A stretch of DNA of 64,000 bases from Bdellovibrionales bacterium GWA1_52_35 (lineage in GTDB: Bacteria > Bdellovibrionota > UBA1018), in NCBI GenBank assembly GCA_001769805.1, contig MEPO01000028.1:1-64000 (forward strand), given 5' to 3'. The position numbers and the translations under genes are program-made. The notes below the pieces were generated by a model. The model ran no database searches, was not told the origin of the DNA, and saw only the letters and a program-made list of their open reading frames with translations. Below, piece after piece: positions 17,241-26,053 of this stretch (position 1 is its first letter; every line of letters starts with the position of its first letter).

Positions 17241-17598
17241 TGGTGGAGACGGCGGGAGTTGAACCCGCGTCCGAAAGCAATCAATCGCCAGAATCTACAT
17301 GTGTGTTTCGTGTTTTTGATTGAGTCAGTGGCGTCCACGAACAAACTACGCTGACCCTCCGCCGACCATTGGTTCGCCTCTCAGGCGCCTGCGATACCTG
17401 AAAGGCTAGCCCACTAAATGACGTTCTATCCCAATCCGTGGGCGAAACCGGGTAGAACGCGTAGCTTAGATTAACGAATTAATTAAGCTGCGAGTGCGTA
17501 ATCGTTGCCAATTACTAGTTGCCATTTTTTTACGAGGCCTATGGCACCTCGACATGCATCTGGGACGTCAATACTCCCGTCGAAGCCGTATCGTCCCC
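17241..17598 (-). ncRNA. ssrA: tmRNA (transfer-messenger RNA)
   Basis: The 5' end reads GGGGACGATACGGCTTCGAC and the 3' end reads CCGCCGTCTCCACCA with an encoded CCA, the two halves of the tRNA-like domain. The T-loop TTCAACTC is visible near the 3' end. The tag frame lies at 17483-17509 and reads GNDYALAA followed by TAA, if GGC is the resume codon. The YALAA end is the usual protease signal. Total length of about 358 bases is normal. tmRNA with SmpB rescues stalled ribosomes. The gene is followed directly by hicBA. Confidence 0.95.
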
Positions 17599-18389: not shown

Positions 18390-20264
18390 ATGCGCGGATG
18401 TTGCGGCGGAATCCATAAATTGAAATTCCTATGGCTTGCGGCAGTATTCCTGCTCAGCGGACCTATTCTGGCTTGTGCAAAAAAACACGATGATTCAGCC
18501 AAACTTGCTGCCGCAATTATGAATCTGCGCTCTGGCGCTGTTGTTCAAGCAGTTGAAAATGCTGCCGCAGAGGAGTCCAACTCTGCCATTAAAACCGGGC
18601 CAGAGCATCTCATGTCGGGCCCGGTCGCCGACCCCTGTTTCCAAATTCCAGTTTTGGAAGGATCAGAAATCCCTGCATTGTCAGAAGAAGACGCTCAAAG
18701 AATGCTGCTGGCGTTGAACACCTGTGTGCGGGGACTTTTTGCGCCAAGTAAGCGCATCGCTACCGAGTTCATTCACTACCAGCTCTTCGTCAAGGATCGT
18801 GGCAGGACAGAATTGCGGAACCGCTTCAGTGATTCCGAACTCGAAGACCTGCAAGACCTCGCCGCTGCACGCAGACTGGCACTCATCCAGGCGGAAGCGC
18901 AAACGCTCGCCGCATTTGAATCACGAAGAAAACTGCTCGAGCGCTTTGCAGTCGAAGTGGATCGCTACACCGTGCTTCTCGCATACATGGATTCCGTGCG
19001 GAATCCCAGCGATTCGGAATTTTTTGAAAGCCTGAGCAGGACCCTGAAATTCACCAGTATTCGCTTTCCGAGAGATATTCCTGAGTTTCCGAAGCATCTT
19101 CTCCGACCCTATGCTCTTGAGGCATTGATTGCCGAACCTGGCCGCGATTTTGAGTCACTCCGAGGGACTCAGGAGAATCCATTCAGCCGGACTCAAGCCG
19201 CAGAGCAGTCCCTTGCCGGCATGCCGGAGCAAGTCACGGAAAGGCTCGCAGCGTACCGGAAATGGCGCGACCAGGACAACCCTGCATTACCGCTGTTTAC
19301 GCCCGCCCATGAGCGTGCGGCTCGGGTCGCGTTCATTGATTCAGGATTGGATTTCATAAAATTCCCGGAACTCGGAATATTTCTGGGTCATTCTCATGAT
19401 TTTGCAGACGACGATGAGAACCCCTGGTTGCCGGCCATCAGGCCGGATTTTGCCCATGGTTCGGGAACCATCGCAACTCTCCTTACCGTCGTATCTGCTC
19501 AAAACCCCGAGATTCTAGCTGATCGTAAAATCGAAGTTTCTGTTTGGAAGACCTTGTCCCTCCGGCAACTTTTAGCGGGAGCAGCAAGCGTTGCGACCCC
19601 CTCCTTCGGCTGGGATAATCGGAAAGCCGAGAGCGCGGCTATTGTCACGCAAGGCGAAAGCGATCTCCTCAGCGAGACCGGGGCAAGCCGAATCATTTCG
19701 GTTTCCGAAAGCTTTCGTCTGGCACCCCATCTTAAGCACCTGCCGCAACATTTTATCCGTAGCCTTCCGTGGCTGTGGGTCATGGCGGCGGGAAACGCAG
19801 GCGTGGATCTCGACAATGCGGCAATCCCGAGCTGTCTGAATGATCTATCGGAAGAGGGCAGGGATGATCGTAAAATCATCTGTGTCGGTGCACTCGTCCG
19901 AGACGGAGGCAAGACAAAAATCGCGGGCTATTCCAACTTCGGGGAGCGTGTCGATGTTTATGCTTTTGATTCCTACACCGGTCTTTGTCCGAGCGGCACC
20001 TCCTGTTCCACTCCGGCAGTCACGGCCGCAGTAGCGGTCCTTGCGGCCAAATTCCCAGACCTCTCCCCTGAGCAGCTTAAGGCCAGCATTATAGCCGCCG
20101 CCGATTTGCGGGAGCTAGAAGTGGACCTGTTGCACCAGCATGGGCCCGCGCCGCTGCGAGCGATTCGGGTTTTTGATCCGCTCACTTCTCTGGTGCATGC
20201 CATCGATCATGCGCAGAAGCTATTGCCGGTTCAGAAAACGGGAAAGCGCGATCAGCGGGAATGA
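18390..20264 (+). CDS. Subtilisin-like serine peptidase, probable lipoprotein
   Basis: This 624-residue protein has a lipoprotein-type signal (FLWLAAVFLLSGPILACAKK) with a lipobox ILAC. After about 270 residues that may form a propeptide comes a subtilase domain: Asp317 in VAFIDSGLDF, His356 in FAHGSGT, an oxyanion-hole Asn in MAAGNAG, and Ser540 in GTSCSTPA. All three catalytic residues are present. The insertion between His and Ser is long. It would act in the periplasm or at the cell surface, perhaps with prey or nutrient proteins as substrates (inference). The stop overlaps the convergent cyclase-like gene by 45 bases. TTGACG lies 16 bases before the ATG. Confidence 0.9.
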   Translation: MRGCCGGIHKLKFLWLAAVFLLSGPILACAKKHDDSAKLAAAIMNLRSGAVVQAVENAAAEESNSAIKTGPEHLMSGPVADPCFQIPVLEGSEIPALSEEDAQRMLLALNTCVRGLFAPSKRIATEFIHYQLFVKDRGRTELRNRFSDSELEDLQDLAAARRLALIQAEAQTLAAFESRRKLLERFAVEVDRYTVLLAYMDSVRNPSDSEFFESLSRTLKFTSIRFPRDIPEFPKHLLRPYALEALIAEPGRDFESLRGTQENPFSRTQAAEQSLAGMPEQVTERLAAYRKWRDQDNPALPLFTPAHERAARVAFIDSGLDFIKFPELGIFLGHSHDFADDDENPWLPAIRPDFAHGSGTIATLLTVVSAQNPEILADRKIEVSVWKTLSLRQLLAGAASVATPSFGWDNRKAESAAIVTQGESDLLSETGASRIISVSESFRLAPHLKHLPQHFIRSLPWLWVMAAGNAGVDLDNAAIPSCLNDLSEEGRDDRKIICVGALVRDGGKTKIAGYSNFGERVDVYAFDSYTGLCPSGTSCSTPAVTAAVAVLAAKFPDLSPEQLKASIIAAADLRELEVDLLHQHGPAPLRAIRVFDPLTSLVHAIDHAQKLLPVQKTGKRDQRE

Positions 20265-22115
20265 ATACGGGTAAGCCGGGTAGTTCATGTAAATCAATCC
20301 CGGGTGCCCCGTTCCCACTGTAGAAAGATCCTTCCACTTGCCGTTGATCGCCAGCTGATCGATCAGATAAGAGGAAGCTCGCTCCAGGGCTTCATTACTG
20401 CTTGCATCAACCGCATGGGGATCCGCTTCCATTAAAGCCAGCATCGCCCAGGCAGTCTGTGACGGTGTGCTGGGCCCGCGGCCGAAGTAAGCAGGATCAC
20501 GATAGGAAAGGCTGCTTTCGCCGAATCCGCCATCCCGGTTCTGAATCGTCATGATCCAGGCAACTGCTTTGCGTATCGCTTTGGAACTCGGCAACTCTCC
20601 CGTTTTCCGCAAACCGATGACCGCTGCGCTGGTTCCGTAAATGCGGTTGATTCCCCAGCGGCCTTCCCAGGTTCCTGTTTTCGGTTCCTGGGTTTTAAGT
20701 AAATATTTCTGCGCTTTCCGAACCGTAGTCGAATTTTCGGGGTTCCAGCCGTAAGTACCGAGTGCTTCCAGAATGTGACCGGTCACGTCCGCTGAACTTT
20801 CATCGAAGAGGTCAGCAGAATCCTCGAAGGCGCGCGTGTAGGCCGCCAGAATGAAATTACCATTGTTATCTTTCGAGAACGCGCCCCAGCCACCGTTTTT
20901 ATTCTGCATGGAGCGCAGCCAATGGAGGGCACGTTCAACTGGTTTTTGAAAATCGGGGTAATGAGAGAGGAGAAGCAGGATTTCCGCCGTGTCGTCGGTA
21001 TCCGGTGCGAACTCAAAGTCCTCTCCAAAGGCAAAGCCCCCATTCGGAGATTGCCGACTGATCAGATATTCAGCCGTACTTCGCAGCTCTGAAGCAGGTG
21101 TGCCCGCTTCCAGTGCGGCGATTCCCATGAGAGCCGTGTCCCAATAGCGGCCGTCATCCAAAACACCGAGATACGCGCTTTCGCCGCTCGAAAAGTACAT
21201 TTCATCCACAAAATTGAGTGCGCGTTCTGTGACCAGGTCGATTTGGGAATTTTTGTCTGGAAAAAAAGAAGAATAATGATCGAGCGTCATCAGGGCCAGC
21301 AAAGTCGAAACCGTGTAGGCACCCCAGCTCCCTTTGGGCTGCTGCAGTTCGAGCATGTCTTCGACCAGCCGTGTTTCGCGCGAACGAGGCCGGGGTTGGA
21401 TGATGGGCAGGTTTGTGCTGCTCTCTCCGCTCGTCCAGAGTTCATCGAGGCGATATTTCATACCCAGATCTTTGGAGACCTGCATCTTCCTGAGATAGGC
21501 GATCGGCAAGAGATGGGGGCCGATCCACTGGGCAAAATCATGATCATTCAACGGGAACCAGTTCGAGAAAAGAATGTAGGGGATTTCCGGAATTTCCTCC
21601 CAGGAATAATTATGAAAAAGCGCCAGAAAGGTTTTTGTAAAAAGATTCGCGTTTTGCAAGCCGCCTTGCGAGACAATGTATAGGCGGGCTTTACTGAGAG
21701 CGGGGCTGGCAAGTGGCAGGTCCAATGCTTTCAGTGCCCAGTAATTTATGATCGTGGCATTCAGGTCCTCGGACAAAATGCTGGCATCGCGAACCGCATA
21801 CCAGGATCCGTCTGAAAGCTGGGTTTTTATCAGAAGCTTGCGGAGCTGATTGCGATCGAGCTGGGACTTTCGAATCATACCGCTCGCTGTGAGCCAATCT
21901 TCGATGAGAGAGAATTGGGAAATGTAATGAGTCCCCAGATAAGACGGCAAATTCCAGAAGGTTTTCCCATCGGCTTGTGCTTTGCGTAAAATCATGACGT
22001 TAGCACGTGCTTTTGAAATCGAGTTTCGAACCAACTCCGGCCTGAGGTCGGCCACAGCCTGCTGAGAGGCCGCAAAGAGGAAAGCCGTTAAAAAGAGTGA
22101 GGAAAACAGGCGCAT
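20220..22115 (-). CDS. Exported squalene-hopene cyclase-like class II terpenoid cyclase
   Basis: The 631-residue protein belongs to the squalene-hopene/oxidosqualene cyclase fold. It has repeated QW-type motifs (QLSDGSW, QQPKGSW, QSPNGGF, MQNKNGGW, TQEPKTGTW, IQNRDGGF). The class II catalytic motif DXDD is present as DTDD (residues 372-375), close in position to that of hopene synthase. Unlike typical family members, it begins with a clear signal peptide (MRLFSSLFLTAFLFAASQQA, cleavage after AVA). It may act in the periplasm, or be a fold relative with a new substrate. No squalene synthase or other hopanoid gene is in the window. Confidence 0.8.
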   Translation of the reverse strand: MRLFSSLFLTAFLFAASQQAVADLRPELVRNSISKARANVMILRKAQADGKTFWNLPSYLGTHYISQFSLIEDWLTASGMIRKSQLDRNQLRKLLIKTQLSDGSWYAVRDASILSEDLNATIINYWALKALDLPLASPALSKARLYIVSQGGLQNANLFTKTFLALFHNYSWEEIPEIPYILFSNWFPLNDHDFAQWIGPHLLPIAYLRKMQVSKDLGMKYRLDELWTSGESSTNLPIIQPRPRSRETRLVEDMLELQQPKGSWGAYTVSTLLALMTLDHYSSFFPDKNSQIDLVTERALNFVDEMYFSSGESAYLGVLDDGRYWDTALMGIAALEAGTPASELRSTAEYLISRQSPNGGFAFGEDFEFAPDTDDTAEILLLLSHYPDFQKPVERALHWLRSMQNKNGGWGAFSKDNNGNFILAAYTRAFEDSADLFDESSADVTGHILEALGTYGWNPENSTTVRKAQKYLLKTQEPKTGTWEGRWGINRIYGTSAAVIGLRKTGELPSSKAIRKAVAWIMTIQNRDGGFGESSLSYRDPAYFGRGPSTPSQTAWAMLALMEADPHAVDASSNEALERASSYLIDQLAINGKWKDLSTVGTGHPGLIYMNYPAYPYSFPLIALSRFLNRQ

Positions 22116-22215: not shown

Positions 22216-23226
22216 TTACTGAGCCAGCTTGCGAACGGCGGTACCGGCAACGGTGAGACGGTACTGGCTCGGGAGCTGAAGCGTGGTCAGCTGTGCCGAA
22301 AAATTGAGAATTCCAATAGCCTGTTTGTAATAGGCTTTGTATCTCAACTCCCGCTGCAGGGCTTCGAGCGTTTCTTGATATTCGGCAGAACCTTGTGCTT
22401 CAACCAGGGTGGTCCGTAGCGCCGCTGAGGCGGTCAGTACATCTATGACGCAAAACCCGTCGACCTCCGGGAGCGTGTCCCCGGTCGTGATAGGCAGTCC
22501 TTCGGCGGGGTGCTTGGAGCCGGTGCGAAAGGTGATGTTTTGCTTTTCGTCGGCAGCTGCGGCCATTTTTTCGTCGGTTGAGGTCAGGGTGGCTTCTGTC
22601 GAAAAAACCTCGTCCGCCGGTGCGAGCCTGAGAACCGCATTCGTATCTCGCAGGGCCTGAACCAGTAATACTCCTGCAAACTCGCTGATTCTCGGTATCA
22701 AAATGTGATTGCCGTCAAATTGGGTCTCCAGATCCACTTTGGAAATCCCCATCTTCTCACGAGAAAGAATGTCGCCAAGTTTGTCTTTTTCGTCGGCATT
22801 GAGTTCACCGGTAATCAAGAGACTGAAAGGAAAAGCGGCGGGTACACCTTCTTTGACATTGGAGAGTTGCTCAGAATATTCGCGGATCGTATTGATCACG
22901 TCTGAATTCAGGCTGCGATCGGCTACTGGAGGGGTGGGGGCGAGTTCAGGTGGTGCAACGAGAATTGCAGAATTGTCCAGAACCCGCGAGGCCTCCTGGA
23001 ATCCACTGCTTTCAATGGGGGCAAAATCCTCCAGGTCCTCGGCAGAGGGCTGAGTCAGACTATTAGAAGACGTATCATTTGTTAACGAAGAGGCTGAAGG
23101 GGCAGAAAGCCGTTGTTTAGAGAGATCCGAGATGGAAGTCAGGTCGCGCGTATCCGTTTGACCTTCGGGCCGATCTGGACTGGCTTCCGCGGCCGGAGTT
23201 TCTGGAAAATCCTCTTCGTCGTTCAA
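22216..23226 (-). CDS. Unknown protein encoded directly downstream of secA
   Basis: The frame runs upstream into secA (to 23361), but that part is a shadow of the SecA C-terminus. TTG 23226, one base after the secA stop, is the most economical start and gives about 336 residues; the start is uncertain. The first 130 residues are acidic, Ser/Thr/Pro-rich and probably disordered. A folded part follows (FSLLITGELNADEKDKLGDI, LIPRISEFAGVLLVQALRD). No membrane helix or known family is seen. Adjacency to secA suggests co-transcription but proves no role in export. Confidence 0.6.
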   Translation of the reverse strand: MNDEEDFPETPAAEASPDRPEGQTDTRDLTSISDLSKQRLSAPSASSLTNDTSSNSLTQPSAEDLEDFAPIESSGFQEASRVLDNSAILVAPPELAPTPPVADRSLNSDVINTIREYSEQLSNVKEGVPAAFPFSLLITGELNADEKDKLGDILSREKMGISKVDLETQFDGNHILIPRISEFAGVLLVQALRDTNAVLRLAPADEVFSTEATLTSTDEKMAAAADEKQNITFRTGSKHPAEGLPITTGDTLPEVDGFCVIDVLTASAALRTTLVEAQGSAEYQETLEALQRELRYKAYYKQAIGILNFSAQLTTLQLPSQYRLTVAGTAVRKLAQ

Positions 23227-23227
23227 C

Positions 23228-26053
23228 TCAGACCCCGTGACATTTTTTATATTTTTTGCCGCTGCCACAAGGACAGGGATCGTTTCGTCCGGCTTTCGCC
23301 ACATTGCTTGCGCTGACCGGTGCTGCACTTGAGGCAGCTCCCTGGTTTCCCATCGGTCCACGTCCCATCGTCATCTGTTTGGGCGCGCGCATGTTGGGCA
23401 TGAGCATCGGCTGGGGTGCTCGAACCGGTGTTGCTTCAGGAGCTTTTGGTTTCGCGGCCGTCGGAACCAGTTCGCCATCCGCCGTCAGATTATACTGAAT
23501 ATTGGCTTCCTGTTCTTCATATTCCTGGGCTTCCTCTTCGAGAAGTTCAGAGGGAGCCACCTGGACTGCAAAGAGCTTGCGAATCACGTCTCCGGTGATC
23601 TGGTTCATCATCATGGAGAAGAAGCGGAATGCCTGTTTCTTGTACTCGATCAAAGGATCTTTCTGTCCATAACCCTGCAGGCCGATGCCTTCGCGCAGGT
23701 GATCCATCGCCAGCAGGTGGTCTTTCCAGAGCTGATCGATCGTGCTGAGCAGAATGATGCGCTCCAGTTGGCGCATATTATCCAAACCCAGCTGCTCTTC
23801 CTTCAAACGATAAGCGGCTTCCGCATGGTTGTGGATGAGCTTGAACAAACCCTCGTCATTGAAAGGATCAATATCCTTTTCTTCAATCTGGGCCGGGATC
23901 TGGAACGTGACGCGAATCGCATCATTCAATTCCTTGGCGTCCAGTCCTCGGTGGCCGTCCGTCCGTTTGAGTTTGCCACCGGGAAAAAAATCGTTGGCGA
24001 TTGCTTTGGCAAGCTCGTCAACCATGGAGAAGACCATTACGCGCAGTTCTCCGCGCGAAAGGACTTCCTTGCGCCAGGCGTAAACGACTTTGCGCTGTTG
24101 ATTCATTACATCGTCATACTCGAGCAGATGTTTGCGAATATCGTAATTGTGACCTTCGACTTTGCGTTGCGCGTTCTCGATCGCCTTGGAAATCCATTTA
24201 TGCTCGATCGGCATGTCCTCTTCCATGAAGCGCGCGATATTGACGCTTCCGAAGATGCGCATGAGATCGTCATCCAAAGACAGGTAAAACCGGCTCTCAC
24301 CCGGGTCGCCCTGGCGTCCGGCGCGGCCACGGAGCTGGTTGTCAATGCGGCGGGATTCGTGCCTTTCGGTGCCGAGAATGAAAAGTCCTCCGGCGGCGCA
24401 GACTTCCTCGCGCTCCTTCGCGCATTTTTCTTTCCACTTGGCCATGGCTGCAGTGAGTGCCTTTTCGTATTCGGCTTTTTCTTCCGGTGAGGCATCCGAC
24501 TTGATCGCGCCGGCCTCGGCCTTGGCGAGCGATTCCGGATTCCCACCCAGCAGGATATCGGTACCGCGACCGGCCATGTTGGTGGCAATCGTCACGGAGC
24601 CCTTGCGGCCGGCTTGCGCGACGATTTCGGCTTCGCGTTCATGTTGTTTGGCATTCAGAACGTGATGTTTAATGCCTTCGCGTTTCAAAATGCCTGAGAT
24701 TCTTTCTGATTTCTCGACCGAAACGGTACCAACCAGAACGGGCTGTCCTTTTTCGACAATGGTCCGGAGATCGGTCAGTATTGATTTCAGTTTGCTGGCT
24801 TCGGATTTGTAAATGACATCGGCCTGATCTTTTCGGATCATGTTTCTGTGGGTCGGGATCACGCTGACATCCAGTTTGTAAATCTGTCTGAACTCAGTGG
24901 CTTCCGTATCGGCCGTACCGGTCATTCCGGAGAGCTTGTTGTACATGCGGAAATAATTCTGGAAAGTGATGGTGGCGAGCGTCTGGTTCTCGTTCTCGAT
25001 ATTGACGCCTTCTTTGGCTTCGATTGCCTGGTGCAAGCCATCGGACCAGCGACGACCCGGCATCAGACGGCCGGTGAACTCGTCGACGATCATGACTTCG
25101 CCTTCTTTTACAACGTAATCGACGTCTCTCTTGAAAAGGACATGGGCGCGCAAAGCCTGATTCGTGTGATGCAGGACTTCAATGTTGGAAGGGTCATAAA
25201 GATTGGCGATACCCAACCTTTTTTCCATTCGCTCCACGCCGGCTTCGGTCAGGGAGGCGGTTTTGGATTTTTCGTCGATAGTGTAGTCGATTTCCTTTGT
25301 TAATCCTCCATCTGCGAGAATGTGGCGGTCGAGTTTGTAATAAAGGTCCGTCGAATCCTCCGTGGGGCCGCTGATGATCAAGGGGGTTCGGGCTTCATCG
25401 ATCAGGATGGAGTCGACTTCGTCGACAATGGCAAAATTCAGTTCGCGTTGAACATAGTCTTCCAACCGGAATTTCATGTTGTCGCGCAGATAGTCAAAGC
25501 CGAACTCATTGTTCGTGCCGTAGGTAATGTCGCAGCCGTAATTCTGCTGGCGCTGAACATCAGTCAGACCGTGAACAATGACACCCGTTGAAAGTCCGAG
25601 AAAATTATGGATCTGTCCCATCCACTGCGAGTCACGTCGGGCCAGATAATCGTTGACGGTAATGACGTGGACTCCTTTACCGGTCAGGCCGTTCAAATAG
25701 CAGGGCAGAGTTGCGACCAGGGTTTTTCCTTCACCGGTACGCATTTCGGCAATACGGCCGCGGTGGAGCGTGACACCGCCGATGAGCTGTTCATCATAGT
25801 GGCGTTGCCCAATCGTTCGCAGAGACGCTTCGCGAACGACAGCAAAGGATTCCGGGAGTAGAGCGTCGAGCGGCTCTCCCCGTTCCAGACGTTGTTTGAA
25901 TTCCGCGGTTTTGGCCCGAAGCTGGTCATTGCTCAGGGCCTTGATGGCGGCTTCAAATTCGTTGGTCCGTACGACCAAGGGTCTGATGGATTTGAGCTCG
26001 CGCTCATTCTGGGTGCCGAAAATCTTTTTCGCAATATTTTGAAAGGGTTGCAT
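23228..26053 (-). CDS. secA: Protein translocase ATPase SecA
   Basis: SecA is the motor that drives unfolded preproteins through SecYEG. The protein is 941 residues from ATG 26053 ([21 protein letters not shown], the normal N-terminus); a longer frame from GTG 26092 overlaps the preceding gene. Walker A is MRTGEGKT, the DEAD-like box is in [13 protein letters not shown], and motifs [10 protein letters not shown] and [11 protein letters not shown] are present. The C-terminus has a linker rich in Pro and Met and then the zinc-binding [13 protein letters not shown], which binds SecB and phospholipid. The gene is complete and of normal length. It lies in a minus-strand run after the PP2C and M23 genes. 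Confidence 0.98.

Follow-up and report, generated by a model that had tools for sequence, protein, structure and literature searches.

Anaerobic protists and fungi can do without sterols thanks to tetrahymanol, whose fossil form, gammacerane, is read as a record of ancient oceans. According to Takishita et al. (2012, PMC3317845), squalene-tetrahymanol cyclases (STCs) carry at position 608 a His that is tied to the C-ring cation, whereas Phe occupies this position in most squalene-hopene cyclases (SHCs) and oxidosqualene cyclases (OSCs); the donor of the eukaryotic STC gene could not be identified at that time. According to PMC7440791, which cites another paper, a prokaryotic STC gene was acquired by gut fungi, and bacterial tetrahymanol is said in PMC12583986 to go with ths, a different enzyme. 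Here we describe a gene for a putative exported STC-like class II triterpene cyclase on a 64,000-nucleotide stretch of DNA (the window) from Bdellovibrionales bacterium GWA1_52_35 (GenBank assembly GCA_001769805.1, contig MEPO01000028.1, positions 1 to 64,000). We hold with moderate confidence that its product is a periplasmic STC-like squalene cyclase, exported by Sec, with squalene perhaps supplied from outside the cell.

The original prediction labeled the product an SHC-like class II cyclase, citing a DTDD motif and six QW-like repeats. Its class assignment stands: Pfam matches SQHop_cyclase_C (9.4e-77) and SQHop_cyclase_N (1.3e-43), which together make up the squalene-hopene cyclase fold, phmmer against the PDB retrieves AacSHC (1gsz) at 1.4e-75, and the QW-type repeats can be read as QLSDGSW, QQPKGSW, QSPNGGF, QNKNGGW, QEPKTGTW, and QNRDGGF. 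The label was right about the squalene cyclase superfamily, but the closest known kind appears to be tetrahymanol synthase (STC) rather than hopene cyclase. The top NCBIfam model is TIGR04277 (tetrahymanol synthase), at 475.3 bits and under its 500-bit cut-off; TIGR01507 (hopene cyclase) gives 332.8 bits, short of its cut-off of 431.1, and TIGR03463 (oxidosqualene cyclase type) gives 143 bits against a cut-off of 851. Likeness to eukaryotic STCs was judged by TIGR04277, whose seed is presumably eukaryotic, and by the published His mark.

When 368 genomes of the phylum were searched with TIGR04277, 20 gave matches, with six STC-like proteins at 324 to 475 bits and the others at no more than 177 bits per match. 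Besides the window protein, these six comprise proteins from G009 (447 bits), G303 (431), G017 (426), G269 (416), and G018 (328), where G numbers denote genomes of the same phylum, G000 is the window genome, and L numbers denote loci. The other copies are 41 to 52% identical to the window protein and are spread over three families. In a scan of 16 other cyclases, TIGR04277 reached at most 222 bits and TIGR01507 scored higher in all 16; the G182 protein, kept apart from these, was intermediate (233 bits for TIGR04277 versus 266 for TIGR01507).

The putative active site was compared with that of AacSHC. In an alignment to AacSHC, all six STC-like proteins retain DxDD and the equivalents of W169, W312, F365, F434, H451, W489, Y495, Y609, and Y612; the original prediction had proposed a check of the active-site aromatic residues, and those listed here are in place. 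The six also agree in their departures from AacSHC, with His at F601, Met at L607, Tyr at I261, Thr at Q262, Gly at Q366, and Ser at F437. In the F601 column, 13 of the 14 hopene-type rows, among them AacSHC, have Phe, and the one from Paenibacillus has Leu; Phe is also found in all three OSC-like rows with an xxDC motif and in G182 and G163, with Ala in G183 and Val in G184. For the E93 column, we state only that Glu was not found there, because the alignment is shifted by one at that column. Single residues in fragments of the window protein were also switched to the hopene-cyclase state and scored on both models. H604F lost 3.8 bits on TIGR04277 and gained 3.6 on TIGR01507, and the same held for Y267I (−4.1, +3.6), G364Q (−3.4, +3.1), S433F (−3.2, +2.4), and T268Q (−2.9, +1.1). 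Because of these paired changes, five of the seven probed sites can be said to agree with the tetrahymanol synthase model but not with the hopene one.

The protein also begins with a predicted Sec-type signal peptide, as originally proposed. The window N terminus (MRLFSSLFLTAFLFAASQQAVA, followed by DL) passes a home-made test, run on in-frame starts upstream of the domain, for a positive n-region, an uncharged 10-residue core with a mean hydropathy of at least 2, and small residues at −3/−1 or a lipobox. All six STC-like proteins have at least one passing start, versus 0 of 16 hopene- or OSC-type proteins (Fisher, 1.3e-5, with shared ancestry ignored), and their signal sequences vary in letters while keeping the same character. 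The homologues thus retain a signal peptide, and a true start further downstream that would leave the enzyme without one is not what we found. Among more distant proteins of family f15, those of G183 and G184 pass the test, that of G163 fails, and that of G182 looks signal-peptide-like by eye without a positive n-region. Removing the signal peptide from the G017 protein costs only 3.3 bits on TIGR04277, so this model is uninformative about signal peptides in eukaryotic STCs. The G269 protein may be lipid anchored. The stretch from the conserved DEL motif to the next QW repeat is 44 to 56 residues long in five of the six STC-like proteins (74 in G018), compared with 65 to 89 in hopene- and OSC-type rows. 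In AacSHC this stretch holds helix alpha-8, the membrane anchor, and losing the helix would suit an enzyme with a different way of contacting the membrane.

In a tree of 27 rows, the six STC-like proteins and G182 lie on one side of a branch with 100/100 support, and without seven long or odd rows the same proteins are set against 13 hopene-type rows, again with 100/100 support. Together with the model scores, this places the cyclase outside ordinary SHCs, in line with the original prediction. Whether G182 falls inside or outside the six is less clear (62/79), and its branch is long; it could be the sister of the STC-like group or one of its early branches. The G182 protein (L054, 865-3756) has 964 amino acids, about 200 of them extra residues at the C terminus; it looks exported, its DADD is intact, and Phe601 is present. 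With Phe601, a signal-peptide-like N terminus, Tyr at I261, and Met at L607, it may be an intermediate.

Other relatives in the phylum differ more. The proteins of G183 (L059, 298-2262) and G184 (L057, 1255-3363) have signal peptides, the cyclase fold, and damaged active sites: G183 has the motif DSDV, and both have lost His451 and have a residue other than Phe at F601. They may have a noncyclase role outside the cytoplasm. OSC-like proteins with VTDC in place of DxDD occur at L011 (G013), L012 (G006), and L023 (G018), all from the bacterial family of the window organism, and these bacteria are possible sterol makers. No relative turned up in viral contigs scanned with the STC-like and mixed alignments, relatives in plasmid records were all below 60% identity (57 records, with 15 rows listed at 27 to 32%), and a scan of genome contigs gave one relative, from Paenibacillus.

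Where would such an enzyme obtain its substrate? The original prediction saw no squalene genes nearby, and this extends to the whole genome. G000 (3.73 Mb in 35 contigs, 92.6% complete) has the window protein as its sole detected cyclase, and neither G000 nor G017, which is 98% complete, yielded a squalene/phytoene synthase (PF00494) in a genome-wide search. A profile of the phylum's own squalene-synthase-like proteins, which contains the G269 and G303 proteins by construction, gave no match in either genome, even at E 10. PF00494 is present in all seven genomes with hopene-type cyclases (G021, G040, G065, G072, G079, G086, and G092), in four of the six with STC-like proteins, and in two of the three with OSC-like proteins (G018 is counted in both of the latter groups). 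Among the STC-like genomes, the PF00494 protein of G303 is squalene-synthase-like (TIGR01559 is its best model), as is that of G269 by alignment and score, and these two organisms may use their own squalene. The PF00494 protein of G009 is CrtB-like, resembling phytoene synthase, and the same kind is found in G020 and G026, which have no cyclase match; that of G018 is truncated and ambiguous, and it occurs alongside an OSC-like cyclase. PF00494 was found in none of the four f15 genomes (G182, G183, G184, and G163), with only an E 0.47 match in G184, so its absence is not unique to STC-like genomes and goes with exported cyclases more broadly. The HpnN marker is uninformative: its matches in the six STC-like genomes are all distant, but a close match is also lacking in most of the hopene-type genomes tested.

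These features suggest a mechanism. The cyclase would be exported by Sec to the periplasm or to the periplasmic face of a membrane, where the DTDD acid, held by His447, would protonate a terminal double bond of squalene. His604 (for Phe601), Tyr267, Thr268, Gly364, and Ser433 would then direct the cascade toward a pentacycle of the gammacerane type, for example tetrahymanol, that would be destined for the outer or inner membrane. The cell would in this way export the enzyme in place of the product. Because no squalene synthase was found, the window organism would probably acquire squalene from its prey, its host, or the environment.

The missing synthase also leads to another interpretation, in which an exported class II cyclase acts not on squalene but on a different periplasmic polyisoprenoid, such as a polyprenol, a polyprenyl phosphate, or a quinone tail. 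This would suit G000 and G017 as well as G009, with only its CrtB-like phytoene synthase, and also the segment shortened in five of the six proteins where hopene cyclases have extra residues; the exported, diverged cyclase-fold proteins of G183 and G184 likewise come from genomes with no PF00494 match over the cut-off. However, five of the seven probed active-site positions fit the tetrahymanol synthase model, and two of the six STC-like genomes keep a squalene-synthase-like gene, which in our view makes such a substrate unlikely. The exported G183 and G184 relatives, because their active sites are damaged, indicate that the fold has taken on other uses outside the cytoplasm, and the window protein might similarly bind a terpenoid without cyclizing it; we consider this very improbable, as every catalytic residue tested is intact in all six STC-like proteins. 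The conserved DTDD and aromatic residues, in-frame GTG and TTG codons downstream of the start, and a genome that is 92.6% complete would also be compatible with an ordinary cytoplasmic SHC whose start was miscalled and whose squalene synthase was lost in an assembly gap. That explanation seems to us highly improbable: signal-peptide-like extensions occur in all six diverged homologues and none of 16 others, the TIGR01507 cut-off is missed by nearly 100 bits with His at F601, and the 98%-complete G017 has no synthase either.

Several points nonetheless weigh against a periplasmic STC-like squalene cyclase, the reading that we prefer. The signal-peptide calls are based on a home-made heuristic, a clear Shine-Dalgarno sequence is missing before the window and G017 starts, and the G269 protein (IVAC, lipoprotein-like) passes the test when TTG and GTG codons further upstream are taken as starts but fails from its best ATG. 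The 500-bit cut-off of TIGR04277 was reached in none of the 368 genomes and is missed by all six STC-like proteins. Two probed sites do not clearly favor the window residue on that model: I608F shows no clear preference (−0.6 on TIGR04277, +3.5 on TIGR01507), and M610L gains on both (+1.2 and +0.7). Equating STC position 608 with AacSHC F601 is our own mapping from the alignment. Finally, a squalene synthase may be missing from G000 through an assembly gap, as 16S was also not found in this assembly.

The resemblance to eukaryotic STCs raises the question of origin. Bacteria with an STC-like active site are a candidate donor lineage and may be relevant to the origin of the gene in protists. 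One tentative idea, which we would entertain but not lean on, is that the exported bacterial lineage that includes the window gene was the source of eukaryotic STCs; anaerobic eukaryotes would then owe their sterol substitute to a periplasmic enzyme of bacteria, one that uses foreign squalene in some species. Transfer in the other direction, with bacterial STC-like genes coming from an anaerobic eukaryote and gaining signal peptides later, is compatible with the same function and would accord with the patchy distribution (6 of 368 genomes of the phylum) and the similarity to the tetrahymanol synthase model. It appears unlikely, however, given how deeply the bacterial copies have diverged across three families, a composition like that of neighboring genes, and the exported-looking G182 protein, which has Phe601 and joins the group at 100/100, its exact place being unsure.

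The cyclase gene lies on a 90-kb contig with secA (identified by sight) and a transfer-messenger RNA (tmRNA) gene close by, and its GC content (0.524) and third-position GC content (0.586) are like those of its neighbors; it is for these reasons that we regard it as a resident bacterial gene and not a eukaryotic contaminant. No promoter or terminator stood out at the locus. The features are listed below.

Coordinates of the cyclase gene, its predicted functional residues, and the adjacent convergent gene (window positions)
Feature	Position	Strand	Details and basis
Putative STC-like exported class II triterpene cyclase gene	20220..22115	(-)	631 amino acids, ATG start, stop included
Predicted Sec-type signal peptide, residues 1-22 (MRLFSSLFLTAFLFAASQQAVA)	22050..22115	(-)	Predicted cleavage before D23; heuristic and homologues
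Tyr267-Thr268, replacing AacSHC I261-Q262	21312..21317	(-)	Alignment; preferred by tetrahymanol synthase model
Gly364, replacing AacSHC Q366	21024..21026	(-)	Alignment; preferred by tetrahymanol synthase model
DTDD, residues 372-375, catalytic acid motif of squalene cyclases	20991..21002	(-)	Aligned to AacSHC D374-D377
Ser433, replacing AacSHC F437	20817..20819	(-)	Alignment; preferred by tetrahymanol synthase model
His447, AacSHC H451 equivalent	20775..20777	(-)	Alignment
His604, AacSHC F601 equivalent, STC-type mark (GTGHP)	20304..20306	(-)	Alignment, probing, literature
Subtilisin-like (S8) lipoprotein gene, convergent	18390..20264	(+)	Open reading frame call and Pfam; not thought part of the system

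The overlap with a subtilisin-type lipoprotein gene noted in the original prediction is real, with 45 nucleotides shared at the 3' end of the cyclase gene. A link between the two genes was not borne out, as other STC-like loci have different neighbors: a LolC/E-like gene (by sight) and an ABC1 kinase gene in G017, a YebC-like gene (by sight) in G009, a P-type ATPase gene in G269, and a PEPCK gene in G303. No common theme was found among the neighbors of the STC-like loci in G017, G018, G269, and G303. In the subtilisin-like protein, the Pfam S8 match covers residues 462 to 575 only. The tmRNA gene (17241-17598, minus strand) encodes the tag peptide GNDYALAA, which resembles a tag in Bdellovibrio and was not found in the openly licensed literature. 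Between secA and the cyclase gene is an open reading frame (22219-23361, minus strand; 381 amino acids predicted) with no Pfam match, the true start of which is probably downstream because the annotated GTG start falls within secA. Structure prediction of the window cyclase as a single sequence gave a pLDDT of 34.7, too low to use.

No bacterial STC group is named in the available portions of PMC11550330, PMC12924338, and PMC4967989, and neither an exported squalene cyclase nor such a bacterial group was found in the openly licensed literature, in which subscription journals are mostly missing. An exported bacterial cyclase that would work like an STC may therefore be new within the literature that can be searched, and by missing the curated cut-off it may escape the STC label. 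It would also be a new arrangement for a squalene cyclase to lie outside the cytoplasm when the genome has no detectable squalene synthase, with a substrate perhaps derived from other cells. Through their STC-like active site, bacteria would be a further possible source of gammacerane.

How does this enzyme compare with known systems? With oxidosqualene cyclases, it has the superfamily in common, but its DTDD differs from their xxDC, the catalytic motif seen here in L011, L012, and L023. The bacterial tetrahymanol synthase Ths is a different enzyme and reportedly acts after hopene cyclase. Ths is similar in providing a bacterial route to tetrahymanol (Banta et al. 2015, as cited in PMC12583986); unlike the window protein, however, the SHC of B. 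elkanii, a species reported there to have ths, retains Phe601. The bacterial SHCs (TIGR01507; AacSHC, 1gsz) share the fold family, the DxDD-His451 pair, and the aromatic lining. The window protein is only 34% identical to AacSHC over aligned columns, with the changes F601H, I261Y, Q262T, Q366G, and F437S, and it departs from the SHC class in lacking Phe601, in its predicted signal peptide and export, in the shorter segment after the DEL motif (in five of the six STC-like proteins), and in coming from a 92.6%-complete genome with no squalene synthase found. It differs from eukaryotic STCs (TIGR04277; e.g., Tetrahymena THC1) in being bacterial, in scoring under the curated cut-off, in its predicted signal peptide, and in belonging to a group where a squalene/phytoene synthase went undetected in two of six genomes. 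Even so, these eukaryotic enzymes appear to be its closest known counterpart, given the best-scoring model, DxDD, His at the F601 site, and Tyr, Thr, Gly, and Ser at the four other sites, which that model prefers.

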